64,000 nucleotides of DNA, taken from the NCBI GenBank assembly GCA_017302165.1, contig JAFLCW010000001.1, positions 868,001-932,000 of the forward strand, in the 5' to 3' direction. Under the pieces are notes generated by a model. It was not told the DNA's origin. It did no database searches and saw only the letters and a program-made list of their open reading frames with translations. The position numbers were made by a program, and so were the translations under genes. Position 1 is the stretch's first letter; each line of letters starts with the position of its first letter. This stretch comes from Alphaproteobacteria bacterium (GTDB taxonomy: Bacteria; Pseudomonadota; Alphaproteobacteria; Micavibrionales; Micavibrionaceae). Below, piece after piece: positions 52,889 to 64,000 of the stretch.

Positions 52889-53692
52889 TTATGGAGAAGG
52901 TACCGAGCCCCCCGGAGCAGGGGATGACGACAATTTCAAAACTCGGCGGGCTTCTCCTTTGGCGTCTTTGGCTTCATATAGCTTGCTATCCGCGCTTTTG
53001 AAAATATCCTCAACCGTATCACCCGGACGGGCATAGTGAACCCCGGCACTAATGCCAATGGATAGATAATCCCCCCGTCCGGTTGGAATGAAGGTTTTTT
53101 GTCGTTTGACTTCAATACGGTCAAGAATGGATTTGATGGCCACTTCAGGCGGTACATCGCCAATCGCCGGGACGATGATGGCGAATTCTTCGCCCCCGAT
53201 ACGCGCCAAAAAGTCACTGGGTCGGATGGATTTGCCTAAAATAAGTTTTGCCACACCCTTTAAGACGCGGTCTCCAAAGTCGTGGCCGAATGTATCGTTC
53301 ACGACTTTGAACCCATCCAGGTCCATCAGGATCAAGGCAAAATCCTTAATCGGGGTTTGACGGGGGGCTTGGCCGCGTGTCCGGCGATCATCTTGACGCA
53401 TTTCCTGATTTATTTCATCTGTCATACGCTGAAGGGTTTTATTAAAAACCCGGCGGTTATTAAGCCCTGTCAGGGCGTCAGTATTCGCTAATTTTTCAAG
53501 TTCATCTTTTTGTTTCTGGAGTTTTTTGATTTCTCTCAATAGTTTGGCGATATCTTCTGTTGAAAAAACTTTTCCTACGGCCAGCGCACGAAGGTGACGA
53601 GCGTTCGTCTGCTTGAAATCGGGAAAATCTTTGGTTGGCAGACCGCCAGCATGACGAAAAGGGTCTTTAACAGCGAGCGGCGATTTTTTCAT
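52889..53692 (-). CDS. soluble diguanylate cyclase (GGDEF)
   Basis: The 267-residue protein has a short coiled coil (about 45-75) then a GGDEF domain with active motif GGEEF ([13 protein letters not shown]) and an inhibitory RxxD site (RPSD) exactly five residues before it. Other features are [14 protein letters not shown] and [14 protein letters not shown]. It should make cyclic-di-GMP and be feedback inhibited. There are no membrane spans. Cyclic-di-GMP often controls both flagella and alginate, which fits this window. Confidence 0.92.
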
Positions 53693-59521: not shown

Positions 59522-59597
59522 GACCGCGTAGCTCAGCTGGTAGAGCAACTGACTTTTAATCAGTAGGTCGTGGGTTCGAATCCCACCGCGGTCACCA
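59522..59597 (+). tRNA. tRNA-Lys (anticodon TTT)
   Basis: The 76-base gene folds as a cloverleaf with acceptor GACCGCG/CGCGGTC, anticodon loop CTTTTAA, T-loop TTCGAAT and encoded CCA. It reads AAA and AAG. Confidence 0.96.
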
Positions 59598-59646: not shown

Positions 59647-59675
59647 TTGACCGTCTTAAACAAACCCCCTATAGA
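59647..59675 (+). promoter_or_regulatory. sigma-70 promoter of algF-algI
   Basis: TTGACC at 59647-59652 and TATAGA at 59670-59675 are 17 bases apart. The start of algF is 32 bases downstream with AAAAGGA between. Confidence 0.7.
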
Positions 59676-59707
59676 TACCGCATTCCATAAACAAAAGGAC
59701 GAAAACG

Positions 59708-60331
59708 ATGCGTCTGCTCATTCTAACCTGTCTGATGATGATATCCGCCGTCACACTCGCCATGGCCAATGCCGATGAGGGGCTGTATCCGCCGCCCGTC
59801 CCCAAAGACGCGGCGGTTGTGCGTTTCATGAATTTGACCTCCGGCGATATGGCGGTCAAGGCAGGTTCGAAATCCTATGGCACCGTCAAAACAGGAACGG
59901 CCTCGCCTTATTACGTACAAAAGGCCGGAAAGATATCGCTTGATCTCAATAAATCGGCCTCCGCTCATACGCTCGCCGGAGGTCAACGTTATACCGCCGT
60001 GCGTACGGCAGATGGCAAGACGGTTCTGCTCAAAGACCCCGCAGGCGATAACCGTGCCAAAGCTACGGTCGTTGTCTATAATTTTTCATCCCAGCCGATC
60101 ACGTTAAAGGCCAAAGCCGGGAGTGTTGCGGTCATTGAAAATGTGCCTGCTAATAGTAATGGCACGCGTGATATTAACGGGGTGAAGGCAGACTTTTCCG
60201 TGCATGGGGCAGATGGTAAAGAGCTGACGAAAATAACACCAGTCATTCTAGAACGCGGCATTACCTATGGGATTATTTATCATGGCAACAAGGCTGTGAT
60301 GTCTTCGGCGACGACCGACACCCGTAAATAA
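59708..60331 (+). CDS. algF: AlgF-like alginate O-acetylation protein
   Basis: The 207-residue protein has a signal peptide (about 1-21), then EGLYPPPVPKDAAVVRFMN and a two-lobed beta structure ending ERGITYGIIYHGNKAVM. Start, length and domain plan match AlgF, a periplasmic protein needed for alginate acetylation in Pseudomonas. It precedes algI by 14 bp, which supports the call. Overall similarity to Pseudomonas AlgF appears modest. Confidence 0.75.
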   Translation: MRLLILTCLMMISAVTLAMANADEGLYPPPVPKDAAVVRFMNLTSGDMAVKAGSKSYGTVKTGTASPYYVQKAGKISLDLNKSASAHTLAGGQRYTAVRTADGKTVLLKDPAGDNRAKATVVVYNFSSQPITLKAKAGSVAVIENVPANSNGTRDINGVKADFSVHGADGKELTKITPVILERGITYGIIYHGNKAVMSSATTDTRK

Positions 60332-60345
60332 TTACCTTAATCGGT

Positions 60346-61743
60346 ATGGTTTTTTCGTCGAATATTTTCCTGTTCCTTTTTTTGCCGGCTTTTCTGGCAA
60401 TTTATTATCTGACGCCTTTTTCGAAAAGGTCCATCCCCATTCTCGTGGGGTCATTTCTTTTTTATGCGTGGTGGCGGATAGATTTTATGGGGCTTTTTGC
60501 GGGCACCATCCTTTGGAATTACGCTATTTATAAGATGATGCGCCGGGTACCTGCGCAGGAACGACGTTGGATGCAGGCCGGAGTTGCTGGCAATCTTTTT
60601 ATTTTAGGCGTATTTAAATATTTCAATTTCGGGGTCGATAGTTTAAATGCCGCGCTGATGGCCTCGGGCATGCCGCCGTTTGATGTGCTCAAGATTATAT
60701 TACCCATCGGTATATCTTTTTATATTTTTCAATCCATCAGCTTTTTGATTGATATTTATCGTAAGGACGCACCTGACCCTAAAAACATATGGGATTTTGC
60801 CGCGTTTATCTCTCTTTTCCCTCAACTGATTGCAGGGCCTATCCTTCGGTATAAGGATGTGGCCAATCAATTTTCTGACCGGGTTCATAGCTGGGATTAT
60901 TTTTCCGAAGGGGCATACCGGTTTATGATAGGGTTCGCCCAGAAGATTTTAATTGCGGATAGTGTTGCCCCGCTGGTGGATATGATGTTTGGATTAGAAA
61001 ACCCAACCTTCCTTGAGTCATGGGTTGGGGCGCTCGCCTATACGCTCCAACTCTATTTCGATTTTATGGGATATTCTTCCATGGCCATTGGCCTTGGGTT
61101 GATGATGGGGTTCCGGTTCATGGAGAATTTCAATCATCCTTATATCAGTCGGTCTATCACTGAGTTCTGGCGGCGTTGGCATATATCGCTGTCTACATGG
61201 CTTCGTGACTATCTCTATATCCCGCTGGGGGGAAATCGTCAGGGTGAGGCTAAAACCTACCGCAATTTGTTTCTGACTATGTTGCTGGGTGGGGCATGGC
61301 ATGGGGCAAACTGGACGTTTGTTATCTGGGGGGCGTGGCATGGGTTTTGGCTCGCACTGGAACGCAAAACTGGGTTCAAAGGCGGGTGGGCTGTGACGGG
61401 GTTTTTGGTTGTTCTAGGTTGGGTTATGTTCCGTGCCGAACATGTATCAGACGCCCTTCAGTTTTATCAAGGCATGGCTGGATTGAACGGCTGGGGCTTT
61501 AGCGAGATGACACGCTGGCAGGTCTGGGGTATGCCGATGGGTGTTCTGATTTTGGGATGGATGCTTGTTTTTCTTCACGCTCGGTTTTTTGAATTTAGAA
61601 CAGAAATTCAAGGTACCCCGGACATGAAGACAGATGGGCAGACAAGGCCTGCAGTAGTGATCATCACGTGTGTATTATTCTTGATGGCGATTACTAAACT
61701 CTCGGCGGAGAGTTACTCCCCATTCTTATATTTTCAATTCTAA
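60346..61743 (+). CDS. algI: AlgI-type MBOAT O-acyltransferase
   Basis: The 465-residue membrane protein has MBOAT features: SSNIFLFLFLPAFLAIYYL at the N-terminus, LPIGISFYIFQSISFLIDIY, TEFWRRWHISLSTWLRDYLY and the catalytic His region LLGGAWHGANWTFVIWGAWHG, quoted in parts. It passes acetyl groups across the membrane for polysaccharide O-acetylation. The flanking algF, alg8 and algD point to alginate. It ends 4 bp from the convergent alg8 stop. Confidence 0.9.
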   Translation: MVFSSNIFLFLFLPAFLAIYYLTPFSKRSIPILVGSFLFYAWWRIDFMGLFAGTILWNYAIYKMMRRVPAQERRWMQAGVAGNLFILGVFKYFNFGVDSLNAALMASGMPPFDVLKIILPIGISFYIFQSISFLIDIYRKDAPDPKNIWDFAAFISLFPQLIAGPILRYKDVANQFSDRVHSWDYFSEGAYRFMIGFAQKILIADSVAPLVDMMFGLENPTFLESWVGALAYTLQLYFDFMGYSSMAIGLGLMMGFRFMENFNHPYISRSITEFWRRWHISLSTWLRDYLYIPLGGNRQGEAKTYRNLFLTMLLGGAWHGANWTFVIWGAWHGFWLALERKTGFKGGWAVTGFLVVLGWVMFRAEHVSDALQFYQGMAGLNGWGFSEMTRWQVWGMPMGVLILGWMLVFLHARFFEFRTEIQGTPDMKTDGQTRPAVVIITCVLFLMAITKLSAESYSPFLYFQF

Positions 61744-61747
61744 ACGA

Positions 61748-63250
61748 TTAAATCACACCGGCCATCATGCCGATAAGAATAATGAAAACAAGCAGAGATA
61801 GCGTGTGAAGCGTAGCCGACATAAACCCATTGAGTTTCTGATCCAACGCACTTTGCCCCGATACTAATTTTGTTTTTTGCCGTGTCCAGCTCTGGCGATC
61901 CAGCCTAAAAAATACATAGGTTTTAATAAATGATCCGTAAATCTGATTGTAATAAAGCAGAAAAGGATACATCCAACTTGTCTGGGTGCGTGTTGTTAAT
62001 AACATAAAGGTCATAATCAGCCGTGTAAAACCAATCCACACCAGATAGACCCATAAAAATGAAAGAGAGTATTTAAGGCATAACATCGTCACAAAAACAG
62101 GGCCTGAAAGTGACGTCCACATAGAGATGCGTTGATCCAGAAGACACCACCATGTAAAAAAGCCGGTAATATGCGGGGGTACATCTAGCGCTCGCTCATT
62201 CGTCCGAAGCATATTCCCAAACCAGCGAAACATTAGCTGAGTAGACGCCTTTAAGAAATTATCAGAGGGCGGATGTTCAACCGTATGAATTTTAACATCC
62301 GGCACATACAACATTTGCCAGCCATTCTTTAAAACCCAGTACCAGCTTGATTTGTCATCCCCGGTCAGGAATTTTAAATGCCCAAACCGCCAATGTTCCA
62401 GATAATCATTCTCAACCTGGGCGATGAAGTCAGGATGGGTAATGATTTCGCCCCGGAACATAGACATGCGTCCGGTCAATGTTAAAACACGCTTGGATAA
62501 CCCCATTGAGGACATAAGCATCTGACGTTGAGCAAAGCGCAGGTCATGCCATTCCCGGATAATACGCGATCCTTTGACGTCGCATTCTTCATCGGTCGTG
62601 AGGGCGCCGATATCCGGCATCATTTTAAAAAAACAAGCTGTGCGACGTATCAGCCCTTCTTCGACAATCGAATCACCATCGATGACCGCCACTACGGCAT
62701 CTGCGGGCGGTAGGTCACGGGAAATAGCCCGAAACCCCTGTGCTAATCCATCACGTTTACCAGTGCCCGGAATACGCACCAGATTAAGTTTGACATGCTC
62801 TGGTGGATTTAATTCTCGGAAAATTTCTTTGATTAAAAACTCATCCGCCAGTTCAACAATCGATGCAACGATGGTGGCGGGAATGTCGCAGGCTATGGCT
62901 TCGCGTATCGTTGCCCGGAAAACTTCTAAGGATGTTTGGCCGTCAATTCTAAAAGATGTAATCAGCAGGTAGATATGGGAGGGCATGACATCTGCCCCCA
63001 GATGATCTGCAATCCGGCGATATTTGGGAAAGACCCAATTTTTGTAAATCATCGCCCGTATAAAGTGAACGGCACCCCATGAATATCGCCATGCGGCCAG
63101 CGCGCCAATAACAAAGATGAATTGTTTGGAACTGGCATCCAGTGCCACAGGCGGCAGAGAAAAAATCGCTGTCACAAGTGCCAGCGTAAAAATACCTAAG
63201 CCCAGAGATCCTTTAGGGAGTAGAGAGGGGCTACCAGCAGATTCCATCAT
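61748..63250 (-). CDS. alg8: Alg8-type mannuronan synthase (GT2)
   Basis: The 500-residue protein has N- and C-terminal membrane spans and a GT2 domain with VVAVIDGDSIVEEGLI (DxD), TTDEECDVKGSRI, VENDYLEHWRFG and the QxxRW-type motif TQLMFRWFG. Alg8 polymerises GDP-mannuronate; it needs Alg44 and cyclic-di-GMP in Pseudomonas. ATG 63250 follows from an AAGAG site; the frame extends to 63295. It overlaps the end of algD by 20 bp, so the two are coupled. Confidence 0.9.
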   Translation of the reverse strand: MMESAGSPSLLPKGSLGLGIFTLALVTAIFSLPPVALDASSKQFIFVIGALAAWRYSWGAVHFIRAMIYKNWVFPKYRRIADHLGADVMPSHIYLLITSFRIDGQTSLEVFRATIREAIACDIPATIVASIVELADEFLIKEIFRELNPPEHVKLNLVRIPGTGKRDGLAQGFRAISRDLPPADAVVAVIDGDSIVEEGLIRRTACFFKMMPDIGALTTDEECDVKGSRIIREWHDLRFAQRQMLMSSMGLSKRVLTLTGRMSMFRGEIITHPDFIAQVENDYLEHWRFGHLKFLTGDDKSSWYWVLKNGWQMLYVPDVKIHTVEHPPSDNFLKASTQLMFRWFGNMLRTNERALDVPPHITGFFTWWCLLDQRISMWTSLSGPVFVTMLCLKYSLSFLWVYLVWIGFTRLIMTFMLLTTRTQTSWMYPFLLYYNQIYGSFIKTYVFFRLDRQSWTRQKTKLVSGQSALDQKLNGFMSATLHTLSLLVFIILIGMMAGVI

Positions 63251-64000
63251 ATCCAGCTCTTTTCTCAAGGTCAGGATTGAGCCGAACCAGATCAATCACG
63301 GGCGTATTGTCATTTGTGAGTGTCATCACGATCGTTGCAAAATCCTTGGTCGGATTACCGATGACAAAAACATCCGATCCCTTCATATCATCTGACTTTT
63401 CAACCAGACAGGATGAAATATGGGATAATTTTTCTTTGATATATTTTTGGTTTGCGCCTTCTTGCTCACGGGCATGCCAGATATTGGGATCATAAATTTT
63501 TAGATCATATCCTTTATTCAAGAGATGATTGGCGAGTGTGACCAGCGGGCTTTCTCTTAAGTCATCTGTTCCAGCTTTAAATGACAAACCCAGAAGTGCA
63601 ATTTTCTTTGATCCGATTTTATCGATCATAGACACGGCACGGTTAACTTGAAGTTCATTCGCTTCCAGCAAGGCATCAAAAATAGGGGTTTTGATGTTTT
63701 TTGAGTTAGCGGCGGCTCTAATGGCTCTCACATCTTTGGGTAAACATGAGCCGCCAAAGGCAAAACCCGGCTTCAGATAGGCTTTGGAGATATTTAGCTT
63801 TGTATCGAGACAAAAAATATCCATGACCTGGTGAGAATCAACGCCATGTGCCTTTAGAATATTGCCCATTTCATTGGCAAACCCAACTTTCATGGCATGC
63901 CAGGCATTATCGGCATATTTAACCCCCTCGGCGATGGCGATTTCCGTGGTCACGCGGGGGGCGTCGATGCCGTCATATATAGACATGATGAGCGAAGCTG
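63231..64000 (-). CDS. algD: AlgD, GDP-mannose 6-dehydrogenase, C-terminal part
   Basis: The gene is cut by the right edge; about 255 C-terminal residues are visible and the frame stays open. They include NAWHAMKVGFANEMGNI, the catalytic Cys in FAFGGSCLPKDVRAI, LLGLSFKAGTDDLRESPLV and the end GICW, all as in Pseudomonas AlgD. It makes GDP-mannuronate, the committed step of alginate synthesis. A UDP-glucose dehydrogenase is less likely given the alg8 neighbour and the GICW end. The promoter lies outside the window. Confidence 0.92.
   Translation of the reverse strand, partial: ASLIMSIYDGIDAPRVTTEIAIAEGVKYADNAWHAMKVGFANEMGNILKAHGVDSHQVMDIFCLDTKLNISKAYLKPGFAFGGSCLPKDVRAIRAAANSKNIKTPIFDALLEANELQVNRAVSMIDKIGSKKIALLGLSFKAGTDDLRESPLVTLANHLLNKGYDLKIYDPNIWHAREQEGANQKYIKEKLSHISSCLVEKSDDMKGSDVFVIGNPTKDFATIVMTLTNDNTPVIDLVRLNPDLEKRAGYDGICW

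Follow-up and report, generated by a model that had tools for sequence, protein, structure and literature searches.

A probable alginate synthesis, modification and export locus with a one-piece AlgK-AlgE exporter in a bacterium of the family Micavibrionaceae

Background

Accounts of alginate production come almost exclusively from Pseudomonas and Azotobacter (PMC7112194, PMC4444821). The corresponding operon has the order algD-8-44-K-E-G-X-L-I-J-F-A (PMC3815931). According to PMC9384988, the alginate export system has its repeat domain in a protein of its own, the lipid-anchored AlgK; in BcsC, PelB and PgaA, the domain forms part of the porin.

Here, an alginate-type locus is described from a genome of the alphaproteobacterial family Micavibrionaceae. 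A homologue of each core gene of the Pseudomonas/Azotobacter operon is present with the catalytic motifs retained, but the gene order is different, the genes lie in six alternating units, AlgK is fused to AlgE, AlgG is present twice and the proteins belong to a separate clade. The sequence evidence makes it very probable that the locus encodes a complete and probably functional system for alginate synthesis, modification and export with a one-piece AlgK-AlgE exporter. New here are the AlgK-AlgE fusion, the presence of two AlgG proteins and the lineage of the host; a partial search of the literature returned no reports of alginate genes in relatives of Micavibrio or of an AlgK-AlgE fusion, which is weak evidence of novelty. 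A full locus in a small-genome, Micavibrio-related lineage extends the known range of alginate.

Methods

The stretch of DNA under analysis, hereafter the window, comprises 64,000 nucleotides (G000:C1:868001-932000). The locus was followed beyond the right edge of the window in a 20 kb stretch, L007 (G000:C1:927001-947000), a window coordinate being equal to the L007 coordinate plus 59000. The distribution of the alginate proteins was examined in samples of 104 Micavibrionaceae genomes, 142 genomes of the order, 385 alphaproteobacteria and 398 Pseudomonadota. A structure was predicted for the fused exporter of a related genome (G392), using 12 sequences (mean pLDDT 76.8).

Results and discussion

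Gene content and organisation

The full locus spans 17 kb (G000:C1:927708-944675) and each of its alginate genes is an intact open reading frame (Table 1). The preliminary description, made from the window, had recognised an alginate-type locus in an alphaproteobacterium, which is borne out by the full gene set. It had also placed algF-algI and algD-alg8 tail to tail, and the stop codons of algI (61743) and alg8 (61748) indeed converge with 4 bp between them. The range that it gave starts at 59647, with the TTGACC-17-TATAGA element, and leaves out the tRNA-Lys immediately to the left. The genes reported as missing from the window, alg44, algK, algE, algG, algX, algL and algJ, were all located to the right of algD; an epimerase, an exporter and Alg44, the absence of which would have spoken against the description, are all encoded within the 17 kb. 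The start of algD lies at 64547, 547 bases to the right of the window, while alg8 may instead start near 63250 and its start overlaps the end of algD.

Table 1. Coordinates and assignments of the features of the alginate locus and its surroundings
Feature	Coordinates	Strand	Assignment
GGDEF (diguanylate cyclase) domain	window 52955-53488	-	in a 272-aa ORF about 6 kb left of algF
tRNA-Lys(TTT)	window 59522-59597	+	left edge of cluster; ARAGORN and synteny with L187
TTGACC-17-TATAGA	window 59647-59675	+	promoter-like, predicted only; 32 bp upstream of algF ATG
algF	window 59708-60331	+	O-acetylation factor; Pfam AlgF PF11182, E 8.2e-36
algI	window 60346-61743	+	MBOAT acetyl carrier; Pfam MBOAT, E 3e-30; WHG histidine motif kept
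alg8	window 61748-63295	-	mannuronan polymerase, GT2; Pfam Glyco_tranf_2_3, E 8e-40
algD, 3' part	window 63231-64000	-	GDP-mannose 6-dehydrogenase; runs past right window edge
algD, whole gene	L007 4231-5547 (G000:C1:931231-932547)	-	ORF
algJ	L007 5648-6748	+	SGNH protein; AlgJ 198 vs 88 bits
algX	L007 6735-8033	+	SGNH protein; AlgX 158 vs 56 bits
algL	L007 8257-9360	-	matches P. aeruginosa AlgL
algG1	L007 9412-11061	+	AlgG epimerase, DPHD motif
algG2	L007 11058-12704	+	AlgG epimerase, DPHD motif; tandem with algG1
algKE fusion	L007 12589-15102	-	Sel1 repeats and Alginate_exp barrel, 837 aa
algA	L007 15161-16597	-	above NCBIfam cut-off; GMP/PMI
alg44	L007 16608-17675	-	PilZ and HlyD parts; glyQS comes next

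Other parts of the preliminary description required revision. In place of two convergent units, the reading directions define six alternating units once the sequence to the right of the window is included, namely algF-algI, algD-alg8, algJ-algX, algL, algG1-algG2 and alg44-algA-algKE. The proposal that a promoter of algF-algI allows acetylation to be tuned apart from polymerisation is too simple, because the acetylation genes are divided between algF-algI and algJ-algX. Sites similar to the one upstream of algF occur at about chance frequency (39 found against 33.2 +/- 6.2 in shuffled sequences), and it is therefore graded as promoter-like only; scans for terminators and promoters likewise performed no better than shuffles. 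Clusters of the Pseudomonas type form one long operon and encode AlgK on its own, as an outer-membrane protein with a lipid anchor, whereas here it is part of a chain without a canonical lipobox; a separate AlgK and a single operon are variant features, not required of all alginate clusters.

Protein identities and the putative pathway

AlgD aligns over its full length with 1mfz, the GDP-mannose dehydrogenase of P. aeruginosa, at 463 bits, while the best UDP-glucose dehydrogenase reaches 258 bits; the motif GGSCLPKD is kept. Alg8 shares 52-53% identity with the A. vinelandii and Pseudomonas proteins, its invariant positions including DGD, TGDDK and RW, and AlgI shows the same identity (52-53%) to its Azotobacter and Pseudomonas counterparts; a search by sequence for a solved relative of Alg8 found none. 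Alg44 matches the structures of Alg44 PilZ domains, with RxxxR and DxSxxG kept. The alignment of AlgL to P. aeruginosa AlgL reveals equivalents of H202, W205, R249 and Y256, the roles of which are given in PMC8829089, and both AlgG proteins retain DPHD, the motif of the AlgG catalytic histidine according to PMC4444821. AlgX, AlgJ and AlgG were likewise assigned through matches to solved structures. The scores of AlgG and AlgK fall below the NCBIfam equivalog cut-offs and these proteins are therefore diverged, while identity to Pseudomonas is 23-26% for AlgE and about 30% for AlgF.

In the proposed pathway, AlgA and AlgD would generate GDP-mannuronate together with a phosphomannomutase encoded elsewhere in the genome, where two genes of the phosphomannomutase family were identified that would close this part of the pathway. 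Alg8 would polymerise GDP-mannuronate across the inner membrane, probably gated by c-di-GMP on the PilZ domain of Alg44, and the proteins behind six GGDEF matches in the genome could supply c-di-GMP. Some of the mannuronate would be converted to guluronate by AlgG1 and AlgG2, AlgI, AlgF, AlgJ and AlgX would carry out O-acetylation and AlgL would clear stray chains. Export would take place through one AlgK-AlgE polypeptide, in which a periplasmic Sel1-repeat scaffold is predicted to be covalently attached to an 18-stranded porin. The window itself holds a GGDEF-domain ORF to the left of algF (Table 1), a possible source of c-di-GMP for Alg44.

Alginate-type machinery might instead make another acidic or acetylated polymer, for example a low-guluronate polymannuronate or a different hexuronan. 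The product is predicted from sequence, proteins such as AlgE and AlgF have diverged from those of Pseudomonas and AlgF-I-J cassettes free of a polymerase occur in other alphaproteobacteria; however, the match of AlgD to GDP-mannose dehydrogenase far exceeds its next best, AlgA exceeds its family cut-off, and AlgL and both AlgG proteins retain the active-site motifs of mannuronan enzymes, so that a product other than alginate appears unlikely. Decay of the locus, with the polymer no longer made, might be suspected from its absence in many members of the family, but with all the genes intact and the catalytic motifs retained it is very improbable.

The fused AlgK-AlgE exporter

The AlgKE protein has its Sel1 repeats at the N-terminus and the Alginate_exp barrel at residues 390-826. 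Compared with solved structures, the barrel hits AlgE (E 8e-27), and the repeats hit AlgK (E 5e-11) along with other Sel1 proteins; the match of the repeats to the NCBIfam AlgK model (E 6e-14) is below its cut-off. The fusion is a single open frame in three further genomes (G136, G392 and G388, with 654, 761 and 769 aa, respectively). Since the four fusion genomes form one clade in the trees of Alg8 (100/100), AlgE (98/99) and AlgG (99/99), the simplest reading is that the fusion arose once, in their common ancestor.

The unfused AlgK proteins of the family carry a lipobox-like Cys in all 11 sequences read, one of them weak (PSAC), and the unfused AlgE of these relatives has its own signal peptide. 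By contrast, the four fusions begin with a signal peptide in which a canonical lipobox is never found (0/4), and a second signal peptide is absent; a Cys occurs in three of these signal peptides, but the residue at -1 is L, V or T. As the four fusions represent one evolutionary event, this pattern counts once and not four times. Joining AlgK to the barrel may have rendered both the lipid anchor of AlgK and the porin's own signal peptide dispensable.

The model of the G392 fusion consists of helical repeats (31-298) followed by 18 strands (316-760). Over 416 residues, its barrel superposes on AlgE with Z 34.6 and an rmsd of 3.1. The repeats match Sel1 proteins with Z of about 17-18, which is middling for repeats. 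The best matches of the barrel are AlgE, with BcsC and PgaA not among the matches listed. The model resembles BcsC, PgaA and PelB in that a periplasmic helical-repeat domain at the N-terminus and a porin at the C-terminus form a single chain, but the barrel, for which 18 strands are predicted, is of the AlgE type and the Sel1-like repeats are related to AlgK; AlgKE is most simply regarded as independent of the BcsC, PgaA and PelB fusions. The natural fusion favours a picture in which AlgK and AlgE work together as a single exporter. It connects alginate export with the one-chain exporters of cellulose, PNAG and Pel and offers structural studies a covalent construct that already exists in nature. 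On balance, it seems likely that one clade of the Micavibrionaceae, a lineage related to predators of Pseudomonas, combines a one-piece, anchor-free exporter of the BcsC/PgaA/PelB layout with a second AlgG that would change the epimerisation pattern.

At three other loci (L051 and L052, from G478 and G479, and G862:C88:17082-18914), algK and algE are adjacent and in the same frame, with only a stop codon and a short spacer between them. This is a possible pre-fusion state, although one in three such neighbours would be in frame by chance.

Distribution and phylogeny

AlgG was identified in 13 of the 104 Micavibrionaceae genomes, three of the 13 carrying a second, long type, and AlgE in 16 of the 104 as well as in three genomes from other families of the order. 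Representation is low in the broader samples, with AlgG in 3 of 385 alphaproteobacteria and 14 of 398 Pseudomonadota, 11 of the 14 belonging to one family, presumably the Pseudomonadaceae. The earlier statement that such loci are rare outside the gammaproteobacteria stands as to their rarity in these samples, with its scope restated as outside one gammaproteobacterial family. In some relatives, the 20 kb read contains alg8-alg44-algK-algE-algL but no algG, and not every locus of the family therefore need make epimerised alginate.

The Alg8, AlgG and AlgE trees place Pseudomonas and Azotobacter in a separate clade with full support and group the proteins of the window genome with their own family, which makes recent transfer from Pseudomonas unlikely. 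AlgG2 has an end branch of 2.8 and no firm placement. Scans of viral contigs for AlgKE and Alg8 returned no relatives and hence no sign of phage carriage.

AlgF was considered as a marker for alginate and rejected, four of its seven alphaproteobacterial matches (G022, G187, G266 and G042) being acetylation cassettes with neither alg8 nor algG in the 20 kb read; the existence of AlgF-I-J cassettes without a polymerase implies that acetylation genes alone do not denote alginate. A second type of alginate-like cluster, in which AlgG lies within proteins of about 960-1250 aa together with alg8 and alg44, was observed in Micavibrionaceae and other alphaproteobacteria (L181, L182, L183, L185 and L186 from G401, G412, G419, G095 and G575, respectively); these long AlgG proteins were left out of the count of loci with the same layout.

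Genomic site and origin

A relative without the cluster (G426) has the order gst-ssb-gyrA-coaD-tRNA-Lys-glyQS-recG, the same as in the window genome, with a gap of about 280 bp between coaD and glyQS that contains the tRNA-Lys. In the window genome, the entire cluster lies between tRNA-Lys and glyQS, and in G136, G392 and G388 it borders on glyQS directly or with a single gene in between. The empty site in the relative makes the gain or loss of the whole alginate trait traceable. Signs of a tRNA-borne integrative island were looked for and not found: no integrase occurs among the cluster genes, all of which are assigned, and the last 10 nt of the tRNA-Lys have no second copy in the 20 kb of L007. 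Both insertion and precise loss are therefore possible. In G419, the tRNA-Lys/glyQS site holds other, unrelated genes (L189:6043-12198), including two similar tandem genes that are flagellin-like by eye, and the interval is thus variable across the family.

The patchy occurrence in the family and the absence of the cluster from the tRNA-Lys/glyQS site of a relative (G426) could be taken to indicate recent acquisition from a Pseudomonas-like donor, perhaps the prey of a Micavibrio-like predator. Such an origin has little probability in view of the separate position of Pseudomonas and Azotobacter in all three trees, the gene order unlike theirs, the proximity of glyQS to the cluster in the three other fusion genomes, a cluster G+C of 0.39-0.49 that grades into the flanks, and a cluster that contains no integrase and whose far edge does not repeat the 3' end of the tRNA. 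An error of assembly or gene calling might in turn have produced the AlgK-AlgE fusion, algK and algE being neighbours in relatives and sometimes in the same frame; yet a single frame of 654-837 aa recurs in four separate assemblies and the fusions have lost both the AlgE signal peptide and the AlgK lipobox, so that an artefact is hardly credible.

Alginate clusters of the relatives

Other Micavibrionaceae clusters and that of the metagenome-assembled genome JAICWS010000003 (L105) comprise the same genes as the window genome, and L105 shares its convergent algI / alg8-algD layout, but AlgK and AlgE are separate genes in these clusters, unlike the fusion described here. Some clusters of relatives additionally contain AlgX-like genes, a phosphomannomutase gene or a SASA esterase. 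At least three AlgX/AlgJ-like SGNH genes are present in each of the clusters L050, L054 and L068, which suggests elaborated acetylation. In three relatives, the alginate cluster is flanked by a gene for a SASA-type carbohydrate acetylesterase (L047:2445-4592, L048:3467-5632 and L053:8211-10379), a candidate alginate deacetylase.
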